From IMG/VR virus record IMGVR_UViG_3300032326_001331, positions 1 to 20,479 of that record: a stretch of 20,479 nt of DNA. One strand, written 5' to 3'. Both the position numbers and the translations under genes were made by a program. Shown piece by piece: positions 2,783 through 18,686 of the stretch. Source of the DNA: a virus. A model generated the notes under the pieces. It saw only the letters and a program-made list of their open reading frames with translations. It searched no databases and was not told the DNA's origin. Positions within the stretch are counted from its first letter, which is position 1. Every line of letters starts with the position of its first letter.

Positions 2783-3220
2783 ATGAAGAAAATAACATTA
2801 ATAATATGTTTATTTTCTTCTGCTTCTTATGCAGGTGAAGTGACTTTTGGATTTAAAAATCCATCTTTTTCTGGTGTCGGCTATTCGTCTCATGTTTTAA
2901 CTATTGATAACCTTGAACAAACAAGGAAGCAGAAGATAATAGAGGACAAAAAAACAGAGGCGGCCAAAGCAGCCGCTGATGCTAAAAACACAAACTTGTC
3001 TAAATTTCTAAATAATCTTGAAAGTAGAATCTACGCAACGATATCACAGAATATCGCTGCAGAACTATTTAAAGAAGGCGGAGCAACTTCAGGATCTTTT
3101 GATATCGGTGGAAATAATTTACAATGGTTGTCTGATGGAACTACTATAACTCTGAGAATTACAGATCCCGGTGGTAGTGTTACGCAAGTGGTAGTACCAT
3201 ACGGGAGTTTAGCATGGTAA
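2783..3220 (+). CDS. csgF: CsgF-like curli assembly factor
   Basis: A 145-residue protein with a Sec signal peptide (residues 1-17, cleavage after SYA) and a strong GAGGAG ribosome binding site. The mature N-terminus reads GEVTFGFKNPSFSG, matching the CsgF N-terminal FxFxNPxFxG segment that, in E. coli, inserts into the CsgG pore neck. The C-terminal region has the CsgF-like pattern of a beta domain (ITLRITDPGGSVTQVVVP). Between them lies an Ala/Lys-rich helical stretch (EAAKAAADAKN) that looks longer or more charged than in E. coli CsgF. It overlaps csgG by 7 bases. Its expected role is to dock on the pore at the cell surface and help nucleate or anchor the exported curlin. Confidence 0.85.
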   Translation: MKKITLIICLFSSASYAGEVTFGFKNPSFSGVGYSSHVLTIDNLEQTRKQKIIEDKKTEAAKAAADAKNTNLSKFLNNLESRIYATISQNIAAELFKEGGATSGSFDIGGNNLQWLSDGTTITLRITDPGGSVTQVVVPYGSLAW

Positions 3221-4041
3221 AATATACATTTTTAATGGTCTGTGCTTTAGTATTAGCAGGTTGTTCTGGTAATAAAATCACATCAAGTAGAGATTTAGAG
3301 AATCAAGTAGATAAAGCAGAGATAATTACTGCAAAAAGATTTAATGAAATCATAAATATACCAGCTGTTTCATCTGATCCTATTCCGGTGGCTGTATACA
3401 AATTTTCTGATATGAGTGGACAAAGAAAACCATCTAGTAATTATGCTAGCTTAAGTTCTGCTGTCACACAGGGTGGAGAAGTTATATTAATTAAATCTTT
3501 ACAGGATGCAGCTAAAGGTAAGTTTTTTAAACCTATTGAAAGAGTTAGTCTTGATAATCTTGTGAAAGAAAGACAACTCATTAGAAGTCAGCGTGAAGTA
3601 TACGAGAAAGAAGAAGCCAAACCATTAACACCACTTATAGTTGCTGGTATTTTAATAGAAGGTGGTATAGTTGGTTATGATAGTAACATAGCAACAGGTG
3701 GTATAGGTGCAAGATATCTTGGTCTTGGTATTCAACAAGAATATCGTAAAGATGAAGTAACAATTATGATGAGATTAATATCCATTAGTAATGGTGAAAT
3801 ATTAATTACAAGTGGTGTAACTAAAACAGTGTATAGTACAGGTGTTAATGCTAATATTTTTAAGTTTGTAGATGCTGGAACTAGATCAGTCGAATTGGAA
3901 GCAGGAACATCTATAAACGAACCAACTACATATGCTGTTAGAATAGCTATAGAAGCTGCAGTAGTTGATATTATAAAGCAAGGTGTGCAGAAGAAGTTAT
4001 GGAAATATAAAGAGACAACTAAAAAGGAAAACAAAAAATGA
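3214..4041 (+). CDS. csgG: CsgG-like outer-membrane secretion pore lipoprotein
   Basis: A 275-residue protein, close to the 277 of E. coli CsgG. A lipoprotein signal peptide with lipobox LAGC places the lipidated Cys at residue 17. The family pattern is clear: VAVYKFSDMSGQRKP, then IERVSLDNLVKERQLIR, then GGIVGYDSNIATGGIGARY, then NGEILITSGVTKTV, and INEPTTYAVRIAIEAAV. CsgG forms a nine-subunit ungated diffusion channel for curlin export. In my manual alignment the E. coli constriction residues Tyr51, Asn55 and Phe56 fall on Ser, Ser and Leu, so the channel gate probably differs. The gene overlaps csgF by 7 bases and the curlin-repeat gene by 4. No csgE-like gene is seen in the window. Confidence 0.93.
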   Translation: MVKYTFLMVCALVLAGCSGNKITSSRDLENQVDKAEIITAKRFNEIINIPAVSSDPIPVAVYKFSDMSGQRKPSSNYASLSSAVTQGGEVILIKSLQDAAKGKFFKPIERVSLDNLVKERQLIRSQREVYEKEEAKPLTPLIVAGILIEGGIVGYDSNIATGGIGARYLGLGIQQEYRKDEVTIMMRLISISNGEILITSGVTKTVYSTGVNANIFKFVDAGTRSVELEAGTSINEPTTYAVRIAIEAAVVDIIKQGVQKKLWKYKETTKKENKK

Positions 4042-4721
4042 AAACCCTAACAAGAATGATTATGTTTTTATCATTCTTCGTTATGACAGGTTATGTAAAT
4101 GCGGCGAACTTAATCTACATGGACCAGATAGGTGATGGTTCTACTATAAACATCACACAGTCTGGTGCTGGAAACGCAATTGGTACATCAAGTGTTAAAT
4201 CATCTTTTACAGGTGATAATAACACAGTGACAATTGAACAAATTGGAAACAATAACGTAACTAATATGACTGTCAGTGGTGATGGTGCTACAATATCATC
4301 TATAGTTAATGGTAGCAGTAATATATTAAATTTAGAGTGTGGTGCTAATGGAGGTTCTTGCGGACCTTCTAATATTACAAAAACTATAACAGGTGATGGT
4401 AACCAGGTAACACAGTCTACAGATACATTAACTACTACTTCTGTTAATGTTCAATCAGATAATAACCAAGTAAATATTACTAGTACTTCAACAGCTGTTG
4501 CTGGTACTAAAAATACAGTTGATATCACTGGTGGTAGCGGTAACATTGTAGATGTTGTGCAAGCTGGCACAGCTGCTACAGTTGGTCATGAAGTTGATTT
4601 AACAATAAATGGTGCTTTAAATACCATTGACTTCAGACAAGGCGGAGCAGTTGACTCTAAGATTGTTACAAATATTACTGGTTCTAGCAACGCTATTACT
4701 ATTAAATCCAACCACAACTAA
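4038..4721 (+). CDS. Secreted curlin-repeat protein (long)
   Basis: A 227-residue protein starting at an ATGA overlap with csgG. A Sec signal peptide covers residues 1-22 (cleavage after VNA). The mature part is rich in Asn, Thr, Gly, Ser and Val/Ile, with degenerate curlin-like strand-turn-strand units such as YMDQIGDGSTINITQSGAGN and VTIEQIGNNNVTNMTVSG, then further weaker repeats to the end. It is the probable amyloid substrate of the CsgG channel. Two cysteines, 101 and 108, sit in ECGANGGSCG; E. coli CsgA has none. The last 95 bases overlap, in another frame, the start of the FecR gene. It could be a CsgA- or CsgB-type subunit; the sequence does not decide. Confidence 0.85.
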   Translation: MKTLTRMIMFLSFFVMTGYVNAANLIYMDQIGDGSTINITQSGAGNAIGTSSVKSSFTGDNNTVTIEQIGNNNVTNMTVSGDGATISSIVNGSSNILNLECGANGGSCGPSNITKTITGDGNQVTQSTDTLTTTSVNVQSDNNQVNITSTSTAVAGTKNTVDITGGSGNIVDVVQAGTAATVGHEVDLTINGALNTIDFRQGGAVDSKIVTNITGSSNAITIKSNHN

Positions 4722-5760
4722 TGCTTCGGTTGGTCAAGTAACAGAACAGTCAGGACCTACAGAGATAAAAAGACAGACTGATGTTATACCCAGTTCTTTG
4801 CAATTTGGTGTAGAGATGAAAGATATCATCACTACAGCAAACTCAAAGGCTGGGATAACTTTTAAAGATGACACTAAAGTTCAAATTACAGAACATAGTA
4901 GATTAGTAATTGATAATTTTGTTTATGATGGCGAAAAGAAAACAGGCAAATTAGGTATCAAGATGGCTCTTGGTACTATAAAATATGCATCTGGTCAGAT
5001 AGCAAAAAATGATCCTCAACAAGTATTAGTAACTACACCAACTGCTACAATTGGTGTTAGAGGTACAGATTTTTCCAGTACAGTTGATGAACTTGGCAGA
5101 TCACAAATTATATTACTTCCTTCATGTCCAATAGGTTGGAAAGACATACAAAAAGATTGTGTGACTGGACAAATCATAGTTTCTTCAGCTATGGGTACAA
5201 TATTATTAACAAAACCATTTGAAACTACAACAGTTGATACAGGTTTTACTAGACCTAGTGCTTCTGTTATATTGAATTTAGATTTAAATCAAATTAATAA
5301 CTTAATCATTGTAAGTCCGCCAAAAATTGTAGAATCTTCTGAAAGAATTTTAGAAAAAAAAGGTTATAATTTTTTAGATGAAGATCTTTTAGGTAAAGAT
5401 CATTTAAAGTTTGCTGAATTTGATAGAGATTTTCTTAAAGAATTTAATAAATTAGATAAAGATTTTTTAGGTACTGATTATCTTTATAACTTTTTAGATG
5501 TTGCTTCTTCGCAGTTTTTATCCGATGAGTTATCAGAATTTAATGCACTTCTTCCTAGATTTAATCCTACAAGTGGATTGAAATTTTTTGTTGAAAATGA
5601 TATACTAACATTGTATAGAGAAACAGTAAATAGCTATACTGAACTAAGTATGTCTCAATATAGAGCTGGTACTCTTAAAATAACTCAAGAAGGCGTAGAA
5701 ATAAAACAAATTATTAATAATACTGGTACAACTATAATTAACATAAAGCAATCAGAATGA
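4627..5760 (+). CDS. FecR-domain periplasmic protein
   Basis: A 377-residue protein if read from the TTG at 4627, the only conventional start before the domain; an in-frame stop lies at 4618-4620 and the next Met is residue 64, inside the domain. From this TTG the N-terminus is a good Sec signal peptide (basic start, LLQILLVLATLLLL, cleavage near TNA at residue 33). The FecR domain follows at about 35-200, with the hallmark TPTATIGVRGTDF at 138-149 and a Cys pair (167, 178) that could form a disulfide. Residues 245-295 are acidic and Phe/Leu-rich. The last 30 residues (ITQEGVEIKQIINNTGTTII and on) resemble a curlin repeat. FecR proteins are periplasmic signalling or ligand-sensing partners and often sit beside CHASE2 cyclases. 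Domain certain; start less so. Confidence 0.85.
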   Translation: MTSDKAEQLTLRLLQILLVLATLLLLNPTTTNASVGQVTEQSGPTEIKRQTDVIPSSLQFGVEMKDIITTANSKAGITFKDDTKVQITEHSRLVIDNFVYDGEKKTGKLGIKMALGTIKYASGQIAKNDPQQVLVTTPTATIGVRGTDFSSTVDELGRSQIILLPSCPIGWKDIQKDCVTGQIIVSSAMGTILLTKPFETTTVDTGFTRPSASVILNLDLNQINNLIIVSPPKIVESSERILEKKGYNFLDEDLLGKDHLKFAEFDRDFLKEFNKLDKDFLGTDYLYNFLDVASSQFLSDELSEFNALLPRFNPTSGLKFFVENDILTLYRETVNSYTELSMSQYRAGTLKITQEGVEIKQIINNTGTTIINIKQSE

Positions 5761-6038
5761 AAATAATAATAGCACTTCTTCTTATGACTTCAACTGCATT
5801 TTCACAGACGATACCTTCGCCTGTAATGAATAATGCTGCAATAAACCTAATAGGAAATTTCAATAATGTTATTATTAATCAATCTGGTATTGGTTTTCAC
5901 AATGTTGTTATTAATAGTACTGGCGACAGTGTTCCCATTAACATTACGCAATCAGGCAATACCAATAAGTCTATACAACTTGATATTCACTGTGTTAGCA
6001 ATTGTGCAACTACTCCTTATATTATTAATCAATATTGA
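5757..6038 (+). CDS. Secreted curlin-repeat protein (short)
   Basis: A 93-residue protein starting at an ATGA overlap with the FecR gene. A signal peptide covers about residues 1-16 (cleavage after AFS). The mature part has two to three curlin-like units (NVIINQSGIGFHNVVINSTG, INITQSGNTN), then HCVSNCAT with Cys79 and Cys83. It may be a nucleator or capping subunit beside the long curlin-repeat protein, in the way CsgB serves CsgA, but that is inference from size and context. No clear independent ribosome binding site is seen, so translational coupling is likely. Confidence 0.75.
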   Translation: MKIIIALLLMTSTAFSQTIPSPVMNNAAINLIGNFNNVIINQSGIGFHNVVINSTGDSVPINITQSGNTNKSIQLDIHCVSNCATTPYIINQY

Positions 6039-6040
6039 AC

Positions 6041-8098
6041 ATGGAAACTTTAGGAAAAATATTAACCAGCGCATGGTCAACTGTTATTTCAGCGATAATA
6101 CTAGTGGCCGTATATGTTTACAACCCTAGTCCAATACAAATATTACAATTAAAAACTTTTGATTTTTTAATAAACACTTTAGAAGATAAAAAATCAGAGG
6201 AAATAATAATTGTTGACTTTGGTGAGAAGTCAGTTAAAGAATTTGGTCAATGGCCATTTGATCGTAGAGATGTAGCAAAAACTGTAAATAAACTAAAAGA
6301 AAATGGCGCTGCTGTAATAGTTATGCCAATACTTTTCTCCGAGAAAGATAGAGCAGGAGGAGACAATGAATTTACAAAAGCTTTGGATGGTGTTGTCATC
6401 GCACAAACACCTACTACTCAAAATATACCACCAGATACAGTACGTCGCGGGTTTGCTTCTATCGGTCCTGTTAACCCTGTCGATTATGTGTTTCGTTGGA
6501 ACGGTGGCATACGTCCTTTATCAGAGCATGCCAAAGTGGCCGGAGGTGTTGGTGTGGTCGCCACCATTAATGAGGTGGATGGTGTGGTTCGTCGTATCCC
6601 TTTACTTGTCAATATTGCTGGCAATTTGTATCCTTCATTACCCTTGGAAACAATTAGGGTTGCCGCCGGTGATCCTAGTTACCAAATTAAAACAAGTGAA
6701 AATGGGCCAGAATTTGTTAGAGTACCAGCATTCGCGCCGATACAGACTGATGAAAGAGGCAGAATCTGGTCAACGTGGAACACAAAATTCGAAAGAATAG
6801 AAGCTACAGAGATTGACCAACGCGTTCAGAATAAAATAGTAATTTTAGGCATTTCAATAGAAGGTGTAGGTGGTATAATAGCTACACCAACTGGTGAGAA
6901 GTGGGCTCATGATATACAGGCTAGCGCACTTCAGACAATTATTGATGGTTCTTCTATATCTAGACCAGGATATAGTAATCTAATTGAAAAAATTATATTA
7001 ATAAGCGTATTAATAATATTAATAATTTTAGTGCCTAGAACATCCGTTAAGTGGACTATTCCAGTTTATGTTGTAATTGTAGTATCATGTGTTACATTTG
7101 CAGTTTATATGTTTAATCAACATATGCAATTGTGGGATACTAGTTATTTGTTATTTGCTTCTACTCTAACATTTGGTCATCTTGTATTCAACAATTTTGC
7201 ACGTGAATTTAGATTAAAGCAACAGATTAAAAAACAGTTTGGCACTTATCTATCACCAGCACTTGTAGAAAAACTACAGAAGAACCCAGAGTTATTGCAG
7301 CTTGGCGGAGACACTAGAGAGCTATCAATCATGTTTACTGATGTTCGCGGCTTTACTAATATTAGTGAGCATTACGGAAGCGACGTTCAAGGATTAACAA
7401 AAATAATGAATCGCTATATGACAGCGATGACAGCTAAAATATTAGATAATAATGGAACTCTTGATAAGTACATTGGCGATGCACAGATGGCTTTTTGGAA
7501 TGCACCACTTGATGATGCAGATCATGCTAAACATGCGGTTAAAACAGCATTAGAGATGTTAGGTGACTTGGAAAAATTCAACAGAGAGATTGCTGACGAA
7601 GGTGTGCCTCCTTTTGGGATGGGTCTTGGTATTAATACAGGTAGCGTTGTGGTCGGAAATATGGGATCTAGTCAACGTTTTGATTACACTTGTTTGGGTG
7701 ATTCTGTTAACTTGGCAAGCCGTCTTGAAGGACAGAGCAAGCCGTATCATGTAAAAATGATTATTGGTCAAAGAACATACGAATTGGTAAAGGATGAATA
7801 TCTCTGCCTAGAACTTGATTGTCTGGCAGTTAAAGGTAAAAAACTAGGTGTAAATATTTACACTATAGTACCAAAAACAGCTCTTAATAGAGCATATTCA
7901 AAAACTCATAATGATTTTATTAAGCTATATAGAGAACAAAATTGGTTAGCTATAGATGAGTACTATAAAACATTAAAAAATGCTTTTGATGGTGAGATGA
8001 ATGAATATTATGATATGATGATGGAGAGAATAGAGGAATTTAAGAAAAATCCTCTATCATCTGATTGGGATGGTGTTTATCGTGCCACTAGTAAGTAA
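6041..8098 (+). CDS. CHASE2-domain adenylate cyclase, membrane-bound
   Basis: A 685-residue class III nucleotide cyclase starting at ATG 6041; a TTG at 6035 overlapping the upstream stop is an alternative. An N-terminal membrane helix (about 13-28) is followed by a periplasmic CHASE2 sensor domain (about 35-310, with QWPFDRRDVA and DGVVRRIPLL), three membrane helices (about 313-387) and a cytoplasmic catalytic domain (about 425-615). Catalytic residues are intact: metal-binding Asp434 (FTDVRGF) and Asp480 (YIGDAQMAFW), adenine-selecting Lys476 and Asp548, and transition-state Asn557 and Arg561 in NLASR. The Lys/Asp pair points to ATP rather than GTP. The expected activity is cAMP production in the host cytoplasm in response to a periplasmic signal, perhaps via the FecR protein. 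It ends one base from a convergent gene. Confidence 0.93.
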   Translation: METLGKILTSAWSTVISAIILVAVYVYNPSPIQILQLKTFDFLINTLEDKKSEEIIIVDFGEKSVKEFGQWPFDRRDVAKTVNKLKENGAAVIVMPILFSEKDRAGGDNEFTKALDGVVIAQTPTTQNIPPDTVRRGFASIGPVNPVDYVFRWNGGIRPLSEHAKVAGGVGVVATINEVDGVVRRIPLLVNIAGNLYPSLPLETIRVAAGDPSYQIKTSENGPEFVRVPAFAPIQTDERGRIWSTWNTKFERIEATEIDQRVQNKIVILGISIEGVGGIIATPTGEKWAHDIQASALQTIIDGSSISRPGYSNLIEKIILISVLIILIILVPRTSVKWTIPVYVVIVVSCVTFAVYMFNQHMQLWDTSYLLFASTLTFGHLVFNNFAREFRLKQQIKKQFGTYLSPALVEKLQKNPELLQLGGDTRELSIMFTDVRGFTNISEHYGSDVQGLTKIMNRYMTAMTAKILDNNGTLDKYIGDAQMAFWNAPLDDADHAKHAVKTALEMLGDLEKFNREIADEGVPPFGMGLGINTGSVVVGNMGSSQRFDYTCLGDSVNLASRLEGQSKPYHVKMIIGQRTYELVKDEYLCLELDCLAVKGKKLGVNIYTIVPKTALNRAYSKTHNDFIKLYREQNWLAIDEYYKTLKNAFDGEMNEYYDMMMERIEEFKKNPLSSDWDGVYRATSK

Positions 8099-8099
8099 A

Positions 8100-8453
8100 T
8101 TACTTTACTTTGTCAGTTTTTTTTTCTGGATAGCTAGCGGACTTCTGCTCTGGTGGAAATTTAATTTTAATCTGGTCTTTAACAACAAAATTATGAGCTT
8201 GCTTTGTTAATTCATCATGTTCCATTTTACGTAGTTGAAGAACTATATTAACTTTTTGATTTAAGCGAATAAGATCATTATCAAGCATGCGAATACGATC
8301 AATCAGCGCAATTAAAACTTTATTAGCTTCAGATAACACAGGTTTAACTTCCTGAGTTGCCCATGTCCAAACATAAAAAATCATATAACCCATACCTGCT
8401 GCTGCAACGATAGGGAAACCATATTTTGATATTAGTTGAGCAATATCACCCAT
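8100..8453 (-). CDS. Holin-like small membrane protein B
   Basis: A 117-residue minus-strand protein with a GGAGAG ribosome binding site 7 bases before its ATG, 2 bases downstream of its paralogue. The N-terminus YGFPIVAAAGMGYMIFYVW is one membrane segment (about 11-31), followed by a heptad-like helical part (about 40-90) and a charged Lys-rich tail. The layout of one N-terminal membrane helix plus coiled coil plus basic tail resembles BhlA/UviB-type and other small phage holins, proteins that permeabilise the inner membrane to time lysis. The function is inferred from architecture and the probable late promoter, not from a firm family match. Confidence 0.6.
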   Translation of the reverse strand: MGDIAQLISKYGFPIVAAAGMGYMIFYVWTWATQEVKPVLSEANKVLIALIDRIRMLDNDLIRLNQKVNIVLQLRKMEHDELTKQAHNFVVKDQIKIKFPPEQKSASYPEKKTDKVK

Positions 8454-8455
8454 GT

Positions 8456-8737
8456 TTAATCTCTCCTTGCATCATTTTTACCATCTGCGCGAGCAATACG
8501 ATCAATATCAGGTTTAACACCCATAGCATTGGAAACAAGAGTATCAATTCTAATAACATCATGATTCATGGTCTTAACTCTATTATCTAAAGCAGTAATA
8601 ATGCCACTAAGACCTTGCACACTACTCATAACACCAGCTAAAATAAATTTAATAGTAAGAAAAATAAAGTATCCCATGGCGCAGGCAGCTGCAATAGGAA
8701 AACCAACATCCGCAATTAATTTGAACCATGTATCCAT
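8456..8737 (-). CDS. Holin-like small membrane protein A
   Basis: A 93-residue minus-strand protein with GGAG 7 bases before its ATG. The N-terminal DVGFPIAAACAMGYFIFLTI matches the downstream protein's GFPIVAAAGMGYMIF, and both continue with a helical region having the pattern ITALDNRVKTMNHDVIRID versus LIALIDRIRMLDNDLIRLN. The two are therefore tandem paralogues. One membrane helix (about 10-35) and a charged C-terminus suggest a holin-type membrane protein; a structural or regulatory partner of the second copy (holin/antiholin) is possible. A T4-like late promoter lies about 26 bases upstream. Confidence 0.6.
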   Translation of the reverse strand: MDTWFKLIADVGFPIAAACAMGYFIFLTIKFILAGVMSSVQGLSGIITALDNRVKTMNHDVIRIDTLVSNAMGVKPDIDRIARADGKNDARRD

Positions 8738-15836: not shown

Positions 15837-15912
15837 GCGCTCGTAGCCCAATGGCAGAGGCATGAGACTTAAAATCTCCACAGTGTCGGTTCGAGTCCGA
15901 CCGGGCGCACCA
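15837..15912 (+). tRNA. tRNA-Leu (anticodon TAA)
   Basis: A 76-base cloverleaf with CCA encoded. The acceptor GCGCTCG/CGGGCGC pairs over 7 bp with one G-U; the T arm GTCGG-TTCGAGT-CCGAC is perfect; the anticodon loop is CTTAAAA with TAA at the anticodon. The discriminator base is A73, as leucine tRNAs require. The variable region is only about 5 bases, whereas bacterial leucine tRNAs usually carry a long variable arm. The D stem has one C-A mismatch and the first anticodon-stem pair is T-C. It would serve UUA codons, which are frequent in AT-rich phage genes. Confidence 0.85.
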
Positions 15913-15932
15913 ATTTAAAACAGGAGTATATA

Positions 15933-16037
15933 ATGGCACATCCTCATAAGAATCGGCCTCGTAAAGGACGTCGCAAGGTTGGAAGTAGAAAGCGCAAGGC
16001 TCGTCGCCTTAAGGGCAAGCGCAAGGGCAAGAAGTAA
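15933..16037 (+). CDS. Very basic 34-residue peptide between tRNA genes
   Basis: The ORF starts MAHPHKNRPRKGRRKVGSRK and ends GKKGKK-like (KGKRKGKK), with CAGGAG 7 bases before the ATG. It has 19 Lys/Arg in 34 residues and no acidic residue. It lies between tRNA-Leu and tRNA-Gly and shares the promoter at 15792. Composition suggests binding to DNA or RNA, like a protamine-like or ribosomal-type peptide, but no family is recognised. A good ribosome binding site and biased composition make it a probable gene; it is easily missed by gene finders because of its size. Confidence 0.65.
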   Translation: MAHPHKNRPRKGRRKVGSRKRKARRLKGKRKGKK

Positions 16038-16047
16038 ATAATATAAT

Positions 16048-16122
16048 GCGGGTATAGCTCAGAGGTAGAGCTTCAGTTTTCCAAACTGACTGTCGTCGGT
16101 TCGATCCCGACTGCCCGCTCCA
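16048..16122 (+). tRNA. tRNA-Gly (anticodon TCC)
   Basis: A 75-base cloverleaf. Acceptor GCGGGTA/TGCCCGC, D stem GCTC/GAGC, anticodon stem TCAGT/ACTGA with loop TTTCCAA (anticodon TCC), T arm GTCGG-TTCGATC-CCGAC, encoded CCA. All stems pair well. It reads GGA and, by wobble, GGG codons. Confidence 0.95.
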
Positions 16123-16136
16123 AACAAAGGTGATTA

Positions 16137-16613
16137 ATGTCTAGGGAATTCAACATTGAAGAAGTTAAAGAATTTATTCAGAACTCTTCAGTTACGTCCA
16201 ATATCTACATTGGAGCCGACAGTGAACGGTATCGTGGTAGGGATGACAAGTGGTATGCTGAGTATACAGTTGCTATCGTTGTGCATCTTGATGGCTCACG
16301 TGGATGTAAAGTATTTGGTAAAGTCTCCTCAGAAAGAGACTATGACAAACGCCACGATCGACCAGCATATCGTCTTATGAATGAAGTTTATCGTGCATCA
16401 GAAATGTACCTAGAACTTTTTGAGGCTATCGGTGATCGTCATTGTGAAGTTCACTTAGACATTAATCCTAATGAAATGCACGGTTCTTCATGCGTAATTC
16501 AACAGGCAACCGGTTATATTCGTGGTATGTGTGGTTTTGCTCCAAAGGTAAAACCAGAAGCTTTTGCTGCATCTTATGCAGCTGATCGTTTAAAAGAAAT
16601 CATAGCTGCTTAA
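16137..16613 (+). CDS. RNase H-like protein, DUF458/YkuK type
   Basis: A 158-residue protein starting 14 bases after tRNA-Gly with AAAGGTG upstream. IYIGADSERYRG (Asp28) opens an RNase H-like fold; RPAYRLMNEVYRASEMYLEL and CEVHLDINPNEMHGSSCVIQ (Asp108) follow, and AASYAADRLKE (Asp150) ends it. This order matches the YkuK/DUF458 RNase H-like family, whose biochemical role is not established. The acidic residues suggest a nuclease, possibly acting on RNA. It sits in an operon with tRNAs, so a part in RNA handling is conceivable (inference). Confidence 0.75.
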   Translation: MSREFNIEEVKEFIQNSSVTSNIYIGADSERYRGRDDKWYAEYTVAIVVHLDGSRGCKVFGKVSSERDYDKRHDRPAYRLMNEVYRASEMYLELFEAIGDRHCEVHLDINPNEMHGSSCVIQQATGYIRGMCGFAPKVKPEAFAASYAADRLKEIIAA

Positions 16614-16623
16614 GGAGAAAACA

Positions 16624-17322
16624 ATGCAACAATATATTTCAGAAGCTAGAAATGACGTTATCTATGATGAAGGTCTTCGTAACTTCATGCTTAATGTTTA
16701 TAATTATATGACTTTTGCTCTTGCAGTTAGTGGTCTCGTATCACTTGGCATTAACATGAGTCCGGATCTTCTTAAATTGATCTGGGGTACAAATTTTAAG
16801 TGGATTGCCATCTTCTCACCATTGGCTATGAGCCTTGCTTTTGCTTTCCTTGTACAGAATATGAGTGCTTATAGTGCTCGTATTTTCTTGATAGCATTTG
16901 CTGCTGTCATGGGTCTTAGTATGAGTTCAATTTTCCTTATCTTTAAGCTCGGAAGTATTGCACAGGTATTCTTTATTACAGCCGCAACATTCGGTGCTAC
17001 TTCTTTGTATGGTTATACTACAAAGAGAGATCTTACAAACATCGGTAGTTTCTTAATGATGGGTGTAATTGGTCTTGTTATTGCAGGTTTAATCAATGTA
17101 TTCTTGCAAAGTTCTATGATGTCATTGGTTATTAGTTGTATCTCTGTAATTGTATTTGTTGGTCTTACAGCATATGATACACAGAATCTTAAGAATACCT
17201 ATGATGAACTTGATGAAAGTGAGAGAGAAAAGGCTGGAGCTATTGGCGCTTTCAATCTCTATATCAACTTCATCAATATTTTCATGGCACTTATGAATAT
17301 TCTAGGTGAGAAGAAAGAATAA
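16624..17322 (+). CDS. Bax inhibitor-1/YccA family membrane protein
   Basis: A 232-residue multispanning protein with TAAGGAG before ATG. Hydrophobic segments lie at about 26-44, 58-77, 84-107, 112-131, 142-161, 166-184 and 206-226, as in the TMBIM/BI-1 family. Family motifs YGYTTKRDLTNIGSFL and GLTAYDTQNLKNTYDE are present. Family members are cation or calcium leak channels, or (YccA) inhibitors of the FtsH protease. Asp185 of AYDTQ is kept, but the second sensor Asp in the C-terminal LYxDFIN segment is Asn215 (LYINFIN). In a phage it could protect or modify the host membrane before lysis. Family identity is firm, function is not. Confidence 0.88.
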   Translation: MQQYISEARNDVIYDEGLRNFMLNVYNYMTFALAVSGLVSLGINMSPDLLKLIWGTNFKWIAIFSPLAMSLAFAFLVQNMSAYSARIFLIAFAAVMGLSMSSIFLIFKLGSIAQVFFITAATFGATSLYGYTTKRDLTNIGSFLMMGVIGLVIAGLINVFLQSSMMSLVISCISVIVFVGLTAYDTQNLKNTYDELDESEREKAGAIGAFNLYINFINIFMALMNILGEKKE

Positions 17323-17329
17323 GGAGTTC

Positions 17330-17404
17330 GCGCGAGTAGCTTAAAGGTGAAGCCGGCCGCTCATAACGGTCTGAGTGTAGGTTCGAGTCCTACCTCGCGC
17401 ACCA
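17330..17404 (+). tRNA. tRNA with CAT anticodon (Met, possibly Ile2)
   Basis: A 75-base cloverleaf. The acceptor GCGCGAG/CTCGCGC is fully paired; anticodon stem GGCCG/CGGTC with loop CTCATAA; T arm GTAGG-TTCGAGT-CCTAC; encoded CCA. The G1-C72 pair excludes an initiator tRNA. Elongator Met and lysidine-modified Ile2 (AUA-reading) cannot be told apart by eye; Ile2 would suit an AT-rich phage rich in ATA codons. Confidence 0.9.
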
Positions 17405-17423: not shown

Positions 17424-18686
17424 GTGAAAGATAATTTTTGGAATAGAAGTCTTAATGTTAGTGAACCCGCATGTTTACAAAAATGGGAATGGTCTACGAT
17501 ATATCTTATGCAACAAAATTCAAGTAGTTGTCATAGAGTAGATAAAGAACCATTTGATATAGAAACTTTTAATTTTCATAATACTCCTGGTGTTCTAGAA
17601 GCAAGAACACAAATGCTTAATGGTGTTTGGCCAGGTAAAGGGTGCGAGTATTGTAAAGATCTTGAAGATTCTGGCGGTTTAAGTGATCGTCAACAAGTTA
17701 ACAATAATTATAAGCTTTGGCATCTAACACCTAAAGAATTAGAACAAAACAATAAAAGTATTAATGTAACTCCATCAACATTGGAAGTTTATTTTTCAAA
17801 CTTATGTAATCAAGCCTGCTTATATTGTTATCCAAGATATAGTTCTAAAATAGAATCAGAACATAAAAGATTTAATCCACAAAATAAAGAATTAGAATTT
17901 ATTAATACACAAAAAAAGAATTATCAACAAGCTAAAAATAAATTTTGGTTATGGATGCAAGATAATTGTATTAACCTAAAAAGATATAGAATCTTAGGTG
18001 GCGAACCATTCTATCAAGAAGAAATATGGGAAAATATAAACTTCTTTAAAAATAATCCATGTTCTGAATTAGACATCCAGATATTCACTAATTTTAATGT
18101 AGACACTCAACGAGTTAGAACTATATTACAGGCATTCAAAGATCTTATAGATAACAAATATATAAAAAGTTTAAGATTAATACTTAGTATTGATGCATGG
18201 AGTCCAGCCGGAGAATATGTTAGAAGTGGATTAAATAATAAACTCTGGAAACAAAACTTTGATATGCTTAATACTGAATTTATTGAAGATTTTTCAGTTA
18301 CAGTACATTCAACGTTATGTAATTTGAATATAAAAACAACAGCAAACCTTGCTGAACTATTTAATCAATCTAATCTATCAAAGTTAAAATCTAATTTTCA
18401 TGATTTCGCATTAGCTGGAGGTCATGAACATCTATACATTGGTAATTTTCCAACTGGTTTTTTTGATGATGATTTTGATTTACTAATAAGTAAAGTTCAA
18501 GATTTACATAACACAAAAGAACAACTAACTGGTTTTAAAATTTTAGCTAATTCTAAACCATACAAACCAGACTTAATCTATGCACTTAAAAATTATTTAG
18601 ATAGCAATGATGCTAAAAGAAATACTAATTGGAAACAAACATTTCCTTGGTTAGAAAGTTTTAATCCAGAAGATTATAAAGAATGA
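17424..18686 (+). CDS. Radical SAM protein with N-terminal twitch domain
   Basis: A 420-residue protein with a GTG start and TAAGGAAAA upstream. The N-terminal part has the twitch-type pattern [16 protein letters not shown] (Cys36), [18 protein letters not shown] (Cys74, Cys77) and SDRQQVNNN. The radical SAM motif CNQACLYC (Cys128, Cys132, Cys135) and [11 protein letters not shown] follow. This order, with an auxiliary-cluster domain before the core, matches the N-terminal-twitch radical SAM group often seen in phages; substrate unknown. It follows the CAT tRNA by 19 bases and overlaps rlpA by 4. It is clearly different from the radical SAM protein at 1105, so it is not a duplicate. Confidence 0.87.

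Follow-up and report, generated by a model that had tools for sequence, protein, structure and literature searches.

A predicted FecR signal peptide that overprints the last curlin repeat of a viral curli operon, and a probable embedded membrane-protein gene in the neighbouring curlin gene

The window, by which we mean the whole stretch of DNA that was analysed, is a virus record of 20,479 bases that contains ribonucleotide reductase genes and a curli-type operon. The operon lies on the plus strand and begins with a csgF-like gene (2783–3220; Pfam CsgF, E=9e-18), which overlaps the csgG gene (3214–4041; Pfam CsgG, E=2.5e-48) by 7 nt. The csgG gene in turn shares a 4-nt ATGA overlap with a CsgA/B-like curlin-repeat gene, here called curlin 1 (4038–4721). 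The Pfam Curlin_rpt match of this ORF (E=0.0013) is under the curated cut-off, and the gene aligns with the annotated curlin genes of HTVC008M and Melnitz. It is followed by a FecR-domain gene (4651–5760; 369 aa, with the mature part from about 4726), which is assigned by Pfam FecR (E=3e-11), by phrog_37870 (E=1.8e-95) and by its place in trees. A short curlin-like gene, curlin 2 (5757–6038), is joined to FecR by an ATGA overlap and is itself the next ORF that relatives conserve, and a TTGA overlap links it to a CHASE2 adenylate/guanylate cyclase gene (6035–8098; Pfam CHASE2 and Guanylate_cyc). All operon junctions other than that of curlin 1 with FecR are thus overlaps of 4–7 nt (ATGGTAA, ATGA, ATGA and TTGA). 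PMC9599517 describes viral T8SS (curli) clusters of pelagiphages in which csgF, csgG, curlin, FecR, a second curlin and an adenylate cyclase have the same order as in the window.

Several further features surround the operon. A radical SAM protein is encoded at 1105–2760 on the plus strand (Pfam), and a long plus-strand ORF at 17424–18686 contains a CNQACLYC motif and looks radical SAM-like by eye. Three tRNA genes, Leu(TAA), Gly(TCC) and Met(CAT), lie within 15837–17404 on the plus strand. On the minus strand, two tandem small paralogous membrane proteins are encoded at 8100–8453 and 8456–8737. Both belong to phrog_18771, and for the protein from 8100–8453 there is in addition a short hit (E=1.2e-4) to a PHROG with a holin annotation. 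By eye, small proteins resembling this pair occur near the operon in L147 and L148, two of the bacterial-genome loci described below.

The FecR frame opens at 4621, directly after a TAA at 4618–4620, and is the +1 frame of curlin 1, as the original prediction had stated. That prediction took TTG 4627 to be the sole start codon before the FecR domain, but TTG 4651 and TTG 4663 are also in frame upstream of mature FecR. Read from 4651, FecR begins with MTLRLLQILLVLATLLLLNPTTTNA-SVGQVTEQ, which is a compact, classical signal peptide of 25 codons (4651–4725). Of its 75 bases, 71 (4651–4721) are inside the curlin gene, where they correspond to the last 23 or so codons. The signal peptide had been expected to end exactly where the FecR domain begins. 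It ends at 4725, however, and the FecR match in Pfam does not start until residue 66 of the reading from 4627 (about base 4822), which is some 32 residues past the predicted cleavage site.

TTG is a weak start codon. We compared the candidate starts among 24 representatives of the clade to which the window belongs, and the column of 4651 is start-like in every one (TTG in 17, ATG in six, CTG in one). An SD-like sequence precedes this column in all 24, mostly by 5 nt, with 5–6 of 7 positions matching AAGGAGG; in the window it is AAGGCGG at 4639–4645, 5 nt upstream of the TTG, so the earlier impression that there is no good ribosome binding site does not hold. This SD-like sequence is encoded by a Q-G-G motif of the curlin protein. 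Among terminal QxG motifs, 39 of 82 are QGG in the full-overlap curlins (defined below) versus 2 of 135 in the other curlins, which suggests that the curlin residue itself has been shaped by FecR initiation. In other sub-clades the FecR start is an ATG or GTG at nearby positions, likewise within curlin. A GTG at −77 is an alternative FecR start in 20 of the 24 relatives and is absent from the window. We made no use of the observation that the wobble base is T in 34/34 cases at the start codon, since this count is conditioned on the presence of NTG; the unconditioned count for the window clade is NTG in 24/24.

The possibility that the signal peptide is real but begins elsewhere, at TTG 4627 or, for example, at TTG 4663, is the best of the alternatives, and we still consider it unlikely. 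Both codons are in frame in the window, and a start at 4627 would give a signal peptide of 33 residues. Against this, the 4627 column is a stop codon in nine of the 24 window-clade genomes and the FecR frame is shut by a stop between the 4627 and 4651 columns in 19 of them, which leads us to reject 4627, the start assigned by the original prediction. The 4663 column is TTG in just two of the 24, and the 4651 column alone combines a start-like codon in all genomes with a conserved SD-like sequence. The FecR start is therefore almost certainly TTG 4651 by these comparisons, and ribosomes probably initiate FecR internally, inside the curlin gene.

To place this arrangement among its relatives, we used a locus set of 308 sequences, made up of viral contigs together with two phage records and three loci from bacterial genomes; 236 distinct sequences were usable after completeness filters. 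In 80 of these 236 loci, which we call full-overlap, the distance from the curlin stop to the ‘VG’ of mature FecR is 10, 13 or 16 nt, the relative frame of the two genes is the same in all 80, and the 12-residue hydrophobic core of the signal peptide is 100% inside curlin. In the remaining loci the distance is at least 40 nt, all three frames occur, and the median fraction of the core inside curlin is 0. HTVC008M has a complete, separate FecR signal peptide that begins after the curlin stop, and in Melnitz and its relatives the overlap is restricted to the beginning of the signal peptide. (The FecR gene of HTVC008M, our locus L027, is annotated as a hypothetical protein; Melnitz is L028.) The full-overlap group is a large group of aquatic phages whose members all come from uncultured contigs, and in the six isolate records with homologues the signal peptide is separate or partly overlapping. 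Among the bacterial-genome matches, curlin-like genes adjoin FecR in L147–L149 only. These three loci may be phage or phage-derived contigs and served as outgroups only. The outgroup FecRs carry a signal peptide.

A single gain is the most likely origin of the full-overlap state. Trees were built on the mature FecR region, with the signal-peptide columns excluded, and the state requires one change among 168 representatives, and again one change among 94 representatives in a second tree that was rooted on bacterial FecRs and from which the long-branched L143 was left out. HTVC008M, Melnitz and L148 fall outside the full-overlap clade on these trees, and no reversal to the separate state is seen among the 64 overlap representatives on the tree. 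Support for the full-overlap branch is weak (SH-aLRT 63; 59/93), and 63% of bootstrap trees require one change, which makes a single origin the simplest reading rather than a proven one.

The present-day spacing suggests how the overlap could have come about. The ancestor would have had its own signal-peptide segment after the curlin stop, as in HTVC008M; a loss of about 30–65 bp would have removed this segment and brought mature FecR to within 10–16 nt of the curlin stop; and the last curlin repeat, hydrophobic in its +1 frame, would have been recruited to encode the new FecR signal peptide. The same geometry would be expected if the events had run in the opposite direction, with curlin losing its stop codon and extending into a pre-existing FecR signal peptide. 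We regard this reverse course as improbable, slightly more so than a different start codon, since it is disfavoured by the constant length of the curlin C-terminus. In the overlapping and separate classes alike, the curlin protein mostly continues for 12–13 residues beyond its last GxxN motif, and the terminal repeat can be aligned across both. The curlin C-terminus is thus unchanged, which indicates that FecR moved into curlin and not the reverse.

The relative position of the two frames explains why such recruitment is feasible. The wobble base of each curlin codon is the second base of a FecR codon, and T-ending codons for Asn, Thr, Ile, Val, Ser or Ala that are followed by a purine, when read one base later, would give Leu, Ile, Val or Met codons with T in the middle. 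The overprint works because the curlin wobble bases become the second codon positions of the signal peptide. The original prediction had gone further and proposed that curlin repeats pre-form signal peptides in this frame, an idea that finds weak support here. Signal-peptide-like +1 windows make up 0.6% of those in curlin interiors versus 1.0% in other genes of the window, so curlin repeats are not supported as an especially rich source; no such windows were found in the +2 frame of the genes scanned in the window. Since a hydrophobic +1 frame is a general property of T-ending codons, curlin repeats are permissive but not special.

This generality, with signal-peptide-like +1 windows in other genes too, is also what would support a reading without any dual coding. 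On that reading the codons of curlin would yield the +1 hydrophobicity incidentally, and FecR would have no leader or would initiate within its mature part. The codon-level evidence makes this very improbable, as does the presence of signal peptides in the outgroup FecRs. Over the last 24 curlin codons the +1 frame is open in 100% of the window-clade genes versus 9% of synonymous shuffles, and elsewhere in curlin 1 its openness is near the shuffle level. An open, hydrophobic frame with a start codon is present in 79% of the full-overlap genes, and synonymous-codon shuffling reproduces it in just 3.3% of cases. (For the non-overlap genes, most of which have a closed +1 frame, the ‘P<0.05’ of the shuffle test carries no information.) The wobble base of the codons underlying the hydrophobic core is T at a frequency of 0.615 in full-overlap genes versus 0.468 expected, an expectation set by how these amino acids are encoded in the remainder of each gene. 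The excess is present in each of three sub-clades, and in 25 of 25 genes of the window’s sub-clade. In clades with a separate signal peptide there is no such excess (0.485 versus 0.481 expected). Synonymous divergence is 0.23–0.24 over the last 12 curlin codons versus about 0.57 elsewhere, so the comparison of synonymous sites across related phages that the original prediction called for shows that divergence is more than halved in the overlap, to which both this constraint and the wobble T excess are confined. The loci are related and the counts in these codon tests are thus not independent, but replication clade by clade and the internal control make chance unlikely despite the kinship of the sequences. 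Two conserved coding frames accordingly lie on the same DNA in the manner of same-strand +1 overprinting (80 loci; the start column), with selection on the second frame beyond that on the first (wobble T, divergence and shuffles).

A curlin–FecR fusion arising from a programmed +1 shift late in curlin 1, which the original prediction had kept as an alternative, is equally improbable: the two frames do overlap without a stop between 4621 and 4718, so that a shift anywhere there would fuse them, but such frameshifting enters a downstream frame that has no start of its own, whereas here a start codon and SD-like sequence are conserved at the 4651 column, the start position is ATG in eight gap-10 loci, the +1 frame is kept hydrophobic across the whole signal peptide (which a fusion would not need), and relatives such as HTVC008M have an independent, complete signal peptide after the curlin stop.

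It is therefore very likely, on evidence drawn from sequence, that the last curlin repeat is dual-coding and provides the signal peptide of FecR from TTG 4651, in an arrangement that probably arose once and has been kept by selection. That the signal peptide is encoded in the +1 frame of the 3′ end of curlin 1 is strongly supported by some 80 related loci and by the codon-level evidence for selection, which bears out the central claim of the original prediction. In its own frame the last repeat would complete the amyloid-repeat protein. In the +1 frame, ribosomes would initiate at TTG 4651 with the help of the SD-like sequence provided by the curlin Q-G-G codons and make a 25-residue Sec signal peptide, and the FecR reading would continue beyond the curlin stop. 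The product would be exported and cleaved after residue 25, and selection on curlin wobble positions would have maintained the overlap ever since. 

Curlin 2 appears to harbour a second overprint. The Leu-rich hydrophobic stretch noticed in the +1 frame of this short curlin gene from 5866 is indeed there, and belongs to an ORF of 87 aa at 5866–6129 on the plus strand, with two predicted hydrophobic helices and a polar tail that runs past the end of curlin 2 into the start of the cyclase gene. A weak SD candidate, AGGA, lies at 5852–5855 and is AAGGAG in nine relatives; AGGA, GGAG or AAGGA(G) precedes the start of the ORF in 22 of 31 cases. In the window clade, the +1 frame of curlin 2 is open from an ATG or GTG at −167 or −170 nt, and in most genomes it stays open beyond the curlin stop. 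Of 36 genes, 86% combine a start codon, openness and hydrophobicity, a combination that 1.3% of synonymous shuffles show. The regions of both helices are open in 94% of the window-clade genes, and shuffling leaves them open in 13% and 33% of cases. The openness of the helix regions equals that of shuffles in the remaining overlap clades, and the non-overlap clades have a moderate excess of openness that is limited to the first region and comes without hydrophobicity. T at the wobble base is in excess within the ORF (0.634 versus 0.459; 0.529 versus 0.438). Before its start there is no excess (0.352 versus 0.407), nor is there one in the other overlap clades. Synonymous divergence in curlin 2 is lowest around the start and the first helix (0.32–0.37) and near normal in the second.

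These patterns suggest that 5866–6129 is probably an embedded membrane-protein gene, which we propose as the second overprinted gene of the operon. AlphaFold predicts two helices with modest confidence (pLDDT 68). Searches against PHROG, Pfam and PDB sequences gave no convincing functional homologue, and neither PHROG nor Pfam showed similarity to a known holin family. No standalone copy was found, and a search with the single protein matched only four loci of the same clade. The ORF is missing in L025, L029, L030 and L044, and its C-terminal end is variable. Taken together, we think it fairly likely that this curli operon carries two +1 overprints on amyloid-repeat genes, one giving the FecR signal peptide and the other a gene for a protein with two transmembrane helices; the repeats would then serve as an alternative-frame nursery for membrane-targeting sequences.

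The nature of the FecR-domain protein can be reconsidered in this light. It has the FecR periplasmic signalling domain by its Pfam match. Since its AlphaFold model, built on an alignment of the window and viral loci only, is weak (mean pLDDT 60.7), only the FecR domain was used for fold comparison, and the best match of this low-confidence model is the C-terminal signalling domain of PupR (6ovk; Foldseek E=6.8e-4). A search of the FecR profile against PDB sequences gave no convincing functional homologue. FecR and PupR have an N-terminal cytoplasmic anti-sigma domain and a transmembrane anchor, whereas the phage protein lacks a cytoplasmic anti-sigma segment, starts with a cleavable-type signal peptide at 4651, and its upstream sequence is occupied by the curlin gene, so that the name ‘iron regulator’ is unsupported. 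The secreted form argues against a membrane-anchored regulator of iron signalling, and the phage FecR is more likely a secreted FecR-domain partner of the curli system. Its C-terminal end has a curlin-like motif, ITQEG...IINIKQSE, and the protein may thus join or cap the curli fibre.

At this locus, which is well sampled, an existing protein has seemingly had its export signal replaced by one that is overprinted on the neighbouring gene. Relatives still have the separate arrangement, the overlap looks as if it arose once and is kept in 80 members, and the trade-off at the codon level can be read directly. The case also shows how a one-base shift in reading lets the T-ending codons of beta-repeats provide hydrophobic signals. 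In practical terms, automated annotation of viral curli operons may put the FecR start in the wrong place and overlook the embedded ORF. The two-helix ORF, if real, would add a concealed gene for a membrane protein to an operon about whose role, in fibres or in lysis control, there is still debate.

The text available from PMC9599517, PMC7029224 and PMC9004378, on pelagiphage curli clusters, yielded no mention of the overlap, the FecR signal peptide or the embedded ORF. The pelagiphages HTVC008M, with its separate signal peptide, and Melnitz, in which the start of the signal peptide is overlapped, both differ from the full overlap of the window. Close parallels for the FecR overlap are the overlapped and embedded spanins of lambda (Rz/Rz1), P2 and Jersey (PMC6139136, PMC5295617), in which a secretion signal also lies in an alternative frame of the 3′ part of the preceding gene, and in which separated and overlapped forms likewise occur among relatives. 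However, the proteins are unrelated. Two-component spanins consist of an inner-membrane i-spanin and an o-spanin lipoprotein, whereas here the partners are a curlin repeat and a FecR-domain protein, whose signal peptide ends in TTTNA-S and has no lipobox Cys; the overprinted signal peptide covers an amyloid repeat, in one frame and with a spacing of 10, 13 or 16 nt in 80 loci; and outgroups with a separate signal peptide have been identified. The ORF at 5866 is reminiscent of the embedded single-gene lysis genes of ssRNA phages (PMC7693330), as a small +1-frame embedded protein with little database similarity, but it lies in a curlin gene of a dsDNA phage and has a conserved start position and a predicted two-helix product. 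Genes D and E of phiX174 (PMC8227390) illustrate the same principle of overprinting, in which T-ending codons read in the +1 frame have T in the middle. There, E is a whole new lysis protein inside D, whereas the overprint described here would supply the signal peptide of an existing, older protein at the junction of two genes.
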